From Clostridia bacterium (lineage in GTDB: Bacteria; Bacillota; Clostridia; Oscillospirales; QAKW01), in the NCBI GenBank assembly GCA_017436525.1, contig JAFSCX010000049.1, forward strand, positions 1-59,124: a stretch of 59,124 bases of DNA, written 5' to 3'. A program made the position numbers and the translations under genes. The notes under the pieces are model-generated. The model saw only the letters and a program-made list of their open reading frames with translations. It searched no databases and had not been told where the DNA came from. Each line of letters starts with the position of its first letter. Position 1 is the first letter of the stretch. Shown here piece by piece: positions 57,217 through 58,771 of the stretch.

Positions 57217-57855
57217 TCAAAATAAATTTTTAAGCTTTTCAGTAATTGCCTTTCCGATCAAAATATGTCCTTCCTCATTGGGATGACATCCATCGATTGT
57301 ATGCTCCCGCCAATCAAAGCCAAAATCCTTAAATAAATTCAAGCATGGAATTCCATTCTCATCAGAAATTTTTTCTATAACATTAGCATATTCCTTCAAT
57401 ATGTGCCCGTTATAATTCTTTTCGGTAGTATCATGCCGACCCGAATCCTTCCAAAAACTTCCACCCCAAAAATTTCCGATTCCGTTATGCGGATAAGGGG
57501 TTACAAACAAAGTGATTTTGTCGCTTCTTTTATCTTTCATTCGTTCTGCAAGCTTTCTTACCGCAAACTCAAAGAATTGGTCTCCTTTCCCAAATATCGG
57601 TTGATCGCTCCAAAAATAATCGTTTGTGCCACCAAATATTACCGCAATATCGGCATCATCTATCAGATAAGCTCGATCCAAAAAAGCATTTCCGTCAGAT
57701 TGATTTAATCCGGCTTTGGCAACCAAGGTTCCTGTGATACCAAAATTTAATTCTTCCATCTCCAAAGCAGAGCTTACAAATGTAGAGTATCTTTTTTCTT
57801 TATTCTCAAGCCCATATCCTAGAGTAATACTATCACCTAAAAACGCAATTTTCAT
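57217..57855 (-). CDS. SGNH/GDSL-family hydrolase
   Basis: A 212-residue esterase-fold protein. Block I GDSITLGYG has the nucleophile Ser9, block III is GGTND (75-79), and the catalytic pair Asp188 and His191 is in IDGCHPNEEGH. There is no signal peptide, so it acts in the cytoplasm on an acyl ester or acetyl group that is not known. AGGGG lies before the ATG. It is followed by a terminator and preceded by a 72-base gap to the Cap15-like gene. Confidence 0.9.
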   Translation of the reverse strand: MKIAFLGDSITLGYGLENKEKRYSTFVSSALEMEELNFGITGTLVAKAGLNQSDGNAFLDRAYLIDDADIAVIFGGTNDYFWSDQPIFGKGDQFFEFAVRKLAERMKDKRSDKITLFVTPYPHNGIGNFWGGSFWKDSGRHDTTEKNYNGHILKEYANVIEKISDENGIPCLNLFKDFGFDWREHTIDGCHPNEEGHILIGKAITEKLKNLF

Positions 57856-57870
57856 TATAGTACCCCTTTA

Positions 57871-57884
57871 TTGATGCGAAGCAT
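57871..57884. repeat. 14-bp direct repeat, copy 1 (beside the SGNH gene)
   Basis: The sequence TTGATGCGAAGCAT is shared exactly with 58548-58561. It contains the small palindrome GATGC-GAA-GCATC in this copy. The two copies lie on either side of the Cap15-like gene. Confidence 0.7.
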
Positions 57885-57927
57885 CTCATCCTTAGTTTCA
57901 GCATAGCATAAAAACAGCAAGGATTTG

Positions 57928-58443
57928 TCATTTACGAGTAAAAATTTGTTTGCCTTTTGTTTGTTTGACTCTATTTGTGTAATAAAATCCTTCTAATGTA
58001 TCTTTGTCTTTTACATATAGCACAGATGTTCCATAGTGCATATCATCATCATTGTTCTTTGGGTGAGTTAAATAAGTATAACAAAGAAACCATTGACCGT
58101 CATCGTTATATTTGTAAAGAGAAGATACTATCGATACACAAACACCATCGCGCATTTTTTCTGTAATGGTAATTTTTGATAGCGTCTGCTTGATTGTAAC
58201 ATCAGATTCATAATGTGTACCATTACCATAAGTAGATTCTATCTTAGTTTTATAATTACCATAAATTTTTGGGGTTTTATTAAATGGATCAAATCTCCAT
58301 AGGAACCTTTCATATGAAAAATATAAAAAAGTTGCAATTGAAACAGAATAAGAAATCGCATCTAAAACGTCAAATATTGTAATAAATATTACAAAGAGAA
58401 CAACTGCAATCCCACTTAAATTTTTAATAACCTCTTTTTTCAT
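57928..58443 (-). CDS. Cap15-like protein: two membrane helices plus beta-rich domain
   Basis: A 171-residue protein with two N-terminal membrane helices (about 8-24 and 28-45) and a beta-rich domain from about residue 48. The pattern of the domain (LWRFDP, KIYGNYKTKI, VTIKQTLSKITI, LCYTYLTHP, MHYGTSVLYV, LEGFYYTNR) agrees with the SMODS-associated 2TM beta-strand-rich effector family, the fold of CBASS Cap15. There, cyclic dinucleotides trigger membrane assembly and damage. No cyclase gene is beside it in this window. The ATG at 58443 is preferred to an upstream TTG at 58467. It lies between a hairpin array and an SGNH gene. The family call is by pattern only. Confidence 0.65.
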   Translation of the reverse strand: MKKEVIKNLSGIAVVLFVIFITIFDVLDAISYSVSIATFLYFSYERFLWRFDPFNKTPKIYGNYKTKIESTYGNGTHYESDVTIKQTLSKITITEKMRDGVCVSIVSSLYKYNDDGQWFLCYTYLTHPKNNDDDMHYGTSVLYVKDKDTLEGFYYTNRVKQTKGKQIFTRK

Positions 58444-58489: not shown

Positions 58490-58518
58490 ATTGTAGCATA
58501 AGTTTTCGCGAAGCGCAA
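58490..58518 (-). promoter_or_regulatory. Possible promoter of the Cap15-like gene
   Basis: On the minus strand TACAAT (58495-58490) is preceded by TGC (extended -10). A weak -35 TTGCGC (58518-58513) is 17 bases upstream. The spacer contains the first small hairpin of the neighbouring array. Confidence 0.45.
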
Positions 58519-58682
58519 CATCATTTGCACCATTAGGTGCAACATCGTTGATGCGAAGCATAACATCGTTTTTGACGAAGTCAAAACATCGTTTTGTCTC
58601 CGAAAGCGGACAATGATGTTGACCGAAAGGTCAAATGATGTTGCGAGTATACTCGCAAACGATGTTATGTCCCCCAAGGACA
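58507..58682. repeat. Array of small hairpins separated by an inverted 9-base word
   Basis: The word AACATCRTT occurs at 58517, 58541, 58562 and 58585, then its reverse complement AAYGATGTT at 58612, 58634 and 58658. Starts are 21-27 bases apart. Between the words lie hairpins with unlike stems: TTGCACC/GGTGCAA, ATGC/GCAT, TTTTGAC/GTCAAAA, TTGT..CCG/CGG..ACAA, TTGACC/GGTCAA (GAAA loop), TTGCGAGT/ACTCGCAA and TGTCC/GGACA. Forward and inverted words can also pair with each other, so the whole can fold into nested branches. It is not a CRISPR: the repeats are short and the spacers are palindromes. Confidence 0.85.
58548..58561. repeat. 14-bp direct repeat, copy 2 (inside the hairpin array)
   Basis: TTGATGCGAAGCAT, identical to 57871-57884 and 677 bases away, with the Cap15-like gene in between. 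Confidence 0.7.
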
Positions 58683-58689
58683 CAAACAC

Positions 58690-58727
58690 AAAAAACAAAG
58701 CACTTCCGAAGAAGTGCTTTGTTTTTT
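58690..58727. terminator. Bidirectional terminator next to the hairpin array
   Basis: A 17-bp perfect stem with core CAAAGCACTTC / GAAGTGCTTTG, a CGAA loop, and A and T runs on both sides. It separates the array from the recombinase region. Confidence 0.9.
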
Positions 58728-58771
58728 GGCTCTCCTGTTCGAAAAAGAACTGGTGAGAAACCCTTAATTTT

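Follow-up and report, generated by a model that had tools for sequence, protein, structure and literature searches.

A word-hairpin array upstream of a Cap15-like gene and its probable kinship with IVP/S23 elements of gut Clostridia

The intervening sequences (IVSs) of 23S rRNA genes, among them the Coxiella and Leptospira types with the IVP/S23p protein (PF05635), have been called selfish, with transposition suggested and no mechanism given, and in the Coxiella IVS the start of S23p is immediately preceded by heptamer repeats (PMC4990558). IVP is similar to the Avd protein of diversity-generating retroelements (PMC10053308), and a figure legend on what CRISPR adaptation modules associate with also names it (PMC10910872). 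A second described relative is Gut-1 (RF01706), which was reported as a probable non-coding RNA (PMC2864571). The array described here has in common with the 23S rRNA IVSs the protein family of its sister elements, inverted end repeats and a scattered distribution suggestive of a selfish element; it differs in lying outside rRNA, in having hairpin arms between its words and a predicted promoter of its own, in lacking IVP and in preceding a Cap15 gene. With REP/REPIN repeats and their RAYTs it shares short, dispersed hairpin repeats, inverted pairs and possible movement in trans. Integron attC sites conserve single-strand structure over sequence, and group IIC introns insert behind intrinsic terminators; these resemble the arrays only in how they work, the arrays being members of neither, and neither integrase nor reverse transcriptase was found among the recurrent neighbours of 100 array loci. 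To our knowledge, IVP has no transposase or nuclease activity and no catalytic domain. A partial literature search found no description of IVP-linked word-hairpin arrays.

Layout and recurrence of the array

The stretch of DNA analysed (the window) is the whole of contig C44, 59,124 nt of a 1.75-Mb draft genome. At 58507–58728 it carries four AACATCRTT words, then three reverse-complement words and a terminator-like hairpin, as the first-pass annotation had described. The words start at 58517, 58541, 58562 and 58585 on the plus strand and at 58612, 58634 and 58658 on the minus strand, and these seven are the only AACATCRTT matches in the window (1.95 expected; maximum of 6 in 100 shuffles). 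Each gap between words holds one hairpin, and the loops run in order ATTA, GAA, GAA, GAAA (central, with a C.C mismatch), GAAA and a TATA-centred palindrome, which bears out the GAA and GAAA closures read at first. Start-to-start spacings are 24, 21, 23, 27, 22 and 24; these had been taken as close to two helical turns, a phasing that does not hold because the period in related arrays varies from ~18 to 27.

Read on the minus strand, the upstream boundary of the array is a bidirectional intrinsic-terminator-like hairpin (58689–58728, on neither strand in particular) with a perfect 18-bp stem, a loop of 4 and T-runs on both strands, in agreement with the strong terminator first reported. A terminator beside the array recurs at related arrays, and two ~90% identical copies of this one adjoin ATGTAATC arrays in the window's own genome. 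Next comes the entry hairpin H0 at the right end of the array, the TTTGTGTCC module (58668–58682, minus strand GTGTCC...GGACA, with TGTCC-CCCAA-GGACA), which is conserved across 30 aligned arrays (alignment A1). Word matching and reading of the sequence then place, on the minus strand, the word AACATCGTT (58658–58666), the hairpin GCGAG-TATA-CTCGC (58643–58657), the word AACATCATT (58634–58642), the hairpin TTGACC-TTTC-GGTCAA (58621–58633) and a further AACATCATT (58612–58620). A central hairpin, TTGTC...GACAA (58594–58611, assigned to neither strand), recognised from the sequence and from array comparison, joins the two inverted halves. The reversed half, on the plus strand, consists of AACATCGTT (58585–58593), TTTTGAC-GAA-GTCAAAA (58571–58584), AACATCGTT (58562–58570), ATGC-GAA-GCAT (58550–58561), AACATCGTT (58541–58549), TTGCACC-ATTA-GGTGCAA (58526–58540) and AACATCATT (58517–58525), the final word ahead of the promoter, and the left end of the array carries a CGC-GAA-GCG hairpin. 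The promoter predicted at this downstream end (58490–58518, minus strand) places its -35, TTGCGC (58513–58518), within the last unit, followed by a 17-bp spacer and an extended -10, TGCTACAAT (58490–58498); it scored below threshold in the promoter scan and was identified by comparison with loci L207, L079, L125 and L150. Neither this promoter nor the link to IVP described below had been part of the first-pass annotation.

Recurrence of the words outside the window, on which that annotation had staked its reading, was found: the word-gap-word pattern is present in 23 of 99 relatives, the reversed control pattern in none, and a three-word pattern occurs in at least 120 stretches of the named genome collection. 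Among the matches listed, most come from uncultured Clostridia and Oscillospiraceae of animal guts, and those found in other phyla are for the most part plain tandem repeats that form no hairpins. In named Clostridia the same word-hairpin arrays occur, with other stems. The window's own genome has ATGTAATC arrays at about nine sites that differ in their flanks; several follow tRNA terminators and one is beside a 5S rRNA gene. The window array is thus one of many dispersed copies of a DNA element in gut Clostridia. Carriage by phage is unsupported, most of the 19 pattern matches in viral contigs not being hairpin arrays of this kind.

IVP genes and stable-RNA sites

Clustering of the ORFs near 100 array loci identified the IVP/S23 four-helix-bundle protein, which matches TIGR02436 and the solved structure 2rld, as the largest recurrent gene family. 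It lies near 17 of these loci, in 16 of them within 1.5 kb and in many within 110 bp. Recombinases, beside which the first-pass annotation had proposed to look for further arrays, are not a recurrent neighbour at these loci. Conversely, when the upstream regions of 40 IVP genes in relatives were read, most of these genes proved to follow inverted arrays of words, which vary (AACATCRTT, AATATCACT, TATATCATC, ATGTAATC, TATTTCAT, TCTTCATTA, CAATTCATG and others); AACATCRTT words themselves occur in the IVP-bearing elements L207, L209 and L212. Hairpins are more frequent in the 320 nt upstream of 37 IVP genes than upstream of 120 control ORFs (4.27 versus 1.55, p 6e-10), and IVP is present in 14 of 16 genomes with the AACATCRTT pattern versus 21 of 43 others (p 0.008). 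One group of IVP clades has AT-rich words and no clear hairpins. At five loci of the AT-rich type (L200, L211, L213, L216 and L224), the host terminator has its 3' arm and T-run repeated in the middle of the array upstream of IVP, like a target duplication.

The word follows the IVP clade. Placed on the IVP tree, 17 word states, assigned by hand on reading, require 17 changes against a minimum of 16. Repeated 7-mers, the sole label-free test, are common to 68% of IVP pairs of at least 60% identity versus 8–21% of more distant pairs, and their sharing correlates with IVP identity (Mantel-type rho 0.33, null maximum 0.16). The association between IVP and the arrays is strong, and it suggests that the words are recognised by IVP.

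A typical IVP array has a terminator on one side, often belonging to a tRNA or tmRNA gene, and a promoter on the other. Of the 40 IVP genes, 17 follow a tRNA or tmRNA on the same strand at a distance of no more than 420 nt; with an estimated ~50 such genes in each genome, fewer than one would be expected by chance. In this order, a complete element consists of a host terminator (often of a stable-RNA gene), an inverted array of clade-specific words with hairpins, a promoter with its -35 inside the last unit, the IVP gene and sometimes cargo. Many IVP genes from other orders of the phylum are flanked on both sides by inverted word arrays, and the two flanks of one IVP align better than mismatched pairs do (p 6e-5; 12 of 28 above the 95th percentile). 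An Rfam test of IVP loci placed three inside 23S rRNA (L261, L266 and L273, with inverted words plain in L261 and L273) and one inside RNase P RNA. In the RNase P case, L268:1229-2003 (and also L270), inverted words stand at either end of an IVP ORF that interrupts the RNase P RNA gene, and the Rfam model matches at full length across the insertion. The window array accordingly follows the same plan as the classical 23S intervening sequence.

We regard it as probable that the window array is an orphan, IVP-less cis-acting end of dispersed elements built around IVP. In such elements, IVP oligomers may bind the words. On single-stranded or supercoiled DNA, words from one half would pair with those of the other, or would sit between extruded hairpins, giving a multi-arm DNA structure, and this nucleoprotein structure could be copied or moved into the terminators of stable-RNA genes. 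Host replication or repair enzymes would probably assist, because IVP has no known catalytic domain. Among the four identities first offered for the array, the small non-autonomous repeat and the protein-binding array came closest to this reading; the structured RNA and the recombination structure did not.

More tentatively, and as a proposal that we hold to be possible without favouring it, IVP and its clade-specific arrays may form a mobile or cassette-like system, so far undescribed, which recognises DNA in its folded form, targets stable-RNA genes and their terminators for insertion, sheds IVP, keeps the terminator-array-promoter unit driving cargo such as Cap15, and would explain both the 23S intervening sequences and Gut-1 RNA. 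The observation that bears on mobility is the dispersal of array copies with different flanks; for the window locus itself no empty site was found to set against the filled one, its DUF2383 neighbour having other surroundings in relatives, without synteny. The clade-specific word arrays are a concrete candidate for the recognition target of IVP.

The same arrays could be operators of a system that does not move: by binding the words, IVP or a different protein would repress or insulate the promoter, and the orphan arrays would make up a regulon. The retention of a promoter with its -35 in the last unit, in copies with and without IVP alike, is what such control would look like, as is a word that follows the IVP clade. 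A regulon is nevertheless hard to reconcile with the genes downstream of orphan arrays, which are inconsistent (none of 10 tested cargo proteins passed the Pfam cut-off), and both the stable-RNA terminators next to the arrays and the presence of IVP within genes for 23S and RNase P RNA point to insertion. Nor would a plain operator be expected to have hairpin arms that carry stable DNA loops. We therefore consider the operator reading unlikely, although it survives better than those discussed next, and retain an orphan end of IVP elements as the preferred reading.

Pairing, loops and Gut-1

The folding z-scores of the window array are -8.2 and -8.4 for RNA on the two strands and -10.7 and -10.0 for DNA, values to which the terminator and the inverted words themselves contribute a share. 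Across arrays, 118 of 176 distinct spacers form hairpins, versus a mean of 13 and a maximum of 22 in shuffles; under a looser criterion with stems anchored on the words, 161 of 171 do so, versus 59 shuffled (maximum 72). The word-anchored count comprises 963 Watson–Crick, 15 G-T, 7 A-C and 34 G-A pairs, and all four Watson–Crick pair types occur at each inner stem position. Pairing is therefore maintained while stem sequence changes, as had been proposed from the window alone, and in the aligned arrays the words stay constant as the stems vary. A recurrent hairpin with tandem G-A mismatches, CGAG facing CGAG, was also seen in spacers such as TCGAGCGAAGCGAG (L058, L059 and L066); this mismatch motif is stable in DNA.

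The loops are oriented with the words: among 133 loops of 3–4 nt on the AACATCRTT strand, 85 are G..A and 1 is T..C. Tetraloops are GNNA, with A 16, C 15, T 8 and G 1 at the third base, and not GNRA. GNA and GNNA loops are unusually stable as DNA. The GCGAAGC mini-hairpin, for one, has been employed for its stability (PMC4686876).

Gut-1 bears on whether the array acts as an RNA. Its Rfam matches coincide with halves of sister-word arrays directly upstream of IVP genes (L204:1756-1831, L218:2447-2523, L219:2177-2250, L227:314-384 and L230:2477-2548), and it is found in 19 of 24 genomes with IVP versus 3 of 16 without (p 0.0003), with 22 matches in the window's own genome. Taken with the strong RNA folding energy of the window array, these matches would fit an array that acts at the RNA level, either as a structured non-coding RNA similar to Gut-1 or as a 5' leader. 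Yet the Gut-1 matches are often inverted pairs, and the Gut-1 model does not match the window array at the gathering score or at E 10; an Rfam scan of the window array likewise returned nothing at the gathering score. Transcription of the array is not expected, because it lies between a terminator and a promoter that is directed away from it, toward the downstream gene. G-U pairs, moreover, number 15 of 1027, an excess over A-C that is not significant (p 0.13), and the loops are not of the GNRA type. From this position, the near-absence of G-U tolerance and the G..A and GNNA loops, we infer that the hairpins work as DNA rather than RNA. The structured RNA suggested at first is thus disfavoured, and we judge any RNA reading improbable. 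The RNA reading of Gut-1 itself is put in doubt, this orphan Rfam family being re-explained as halves of word-hairpin arrays.

Still less probable, in our judgement, is that the hairpins are functionless and were perfected by template switching on quasi-palindromes, with passive spread. Near-perfect Watson–Crick stems without tolerance of G-U would fit correction at the DNA level; such a by-product would not lead one to expect a loop type that tracks word orientation, fixed words with changing stems or linkage to the IVP clade. A REP/REPIN-type repeat moved by a Y1 transposase (RAYT or IS200-like) is scarcely credible, for all the short hairpin repeats, inverted pairs and many copies, since here the word is conserved and the stem variable, the reverse of REP, and no Y1_Tnp (PF01797) was found in the window's genome (G000) or in its most array-rich relative (G007).

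The window copy and Cap15

As a probable orphan end of IVP elements, the window copy keeps the terminator, inverted array and promoter of complete copies of this order. It has no IVP gene beside it, and with no IVP ORF inside it is properly an IVP-less derivative and not a full IVP/S23 element. The window's genome encodes four IVP genes, all with other words upstream and none with AACATCRTT, so recognition of the window array in trans would require an IVP gene that escaped detection; otherwise the array is a relic, perhaps one that persists as a terminator-promoter unit, or is maintained for another role. No stable-RNA gene adjoins its terminator by Rfam; the nearest and sole tRNA in the window is 39 kb off, and the contig ends 400 nt beyond.

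Among IVP-bearing copies, homology starts at the terminator (-52 to -77 relative to the first word) and runs on to around the IVP stop; among IVP-less copies it runs from -52 to just beyond the ORF start. Intermediates with a shortened IVP exist: in L061, IVP survives as its first four codons (GTGAGAGAAGAT, VRED), joined to a different ORF, and L121 retains a 5' fragment of IVP ahead of a lipoprotein gene.

Next to the array, on the minus strand, lies the Cap15-like 2TM CBASS effector gene (57928–58443, alternative start 58467; PF18153, E 2e-17), which is followed by a GDSL/SGNH hydrolase gene (57217–57855, minus strand). A CBASS operon would pair such an effector with a CD-NTase; the genes neighbouring Cap15 are GDSL and DUF2383. 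The Cap15-like flank named in the first-pass annotation thus stood, whereas the serine recombinase named on the other side is a partial ORF at the contig end without a Pfam or NCBIfam match. The end of the array in the window, AAACTTATGCTACAATAA, is nearly identical to AAACTTATGGTACAATAA in the IVP-bearing L207, and is followed by Cap15, which thereby occupies the usual place of IVP. Cap15 had no match among 11 relatives of the same family and only 3 weak matches outside its own genome in 295 genomes of the order, and the two homologues whose flanks were read have no obvious array. The GDSL gene likewise has no close relative in the family, and the absence of close family counterparts for both genes fits acquisition. 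The IVP gene may have been lost or replaced here, in which case the leftover terminator-array-promoter unit would drive Cap15 and GDSL in the leftward direction and insulate them from the gene upstream. An immune-effector-like gene can, on this comparison, sit under a predicted promoter borne by the element.

Genes after array or IVP units often encode small membrane proteins or lipoproteins that fall in no Pfam family and could be cargo, as at L073:4180-4632, L145:1651-2148, L066:1515-1967 and L084:3720-4163. In the window, a lone GATGC-GAA-GCATC hairpin lies at 57874–57887, between the Cap15 and GDSL genes.
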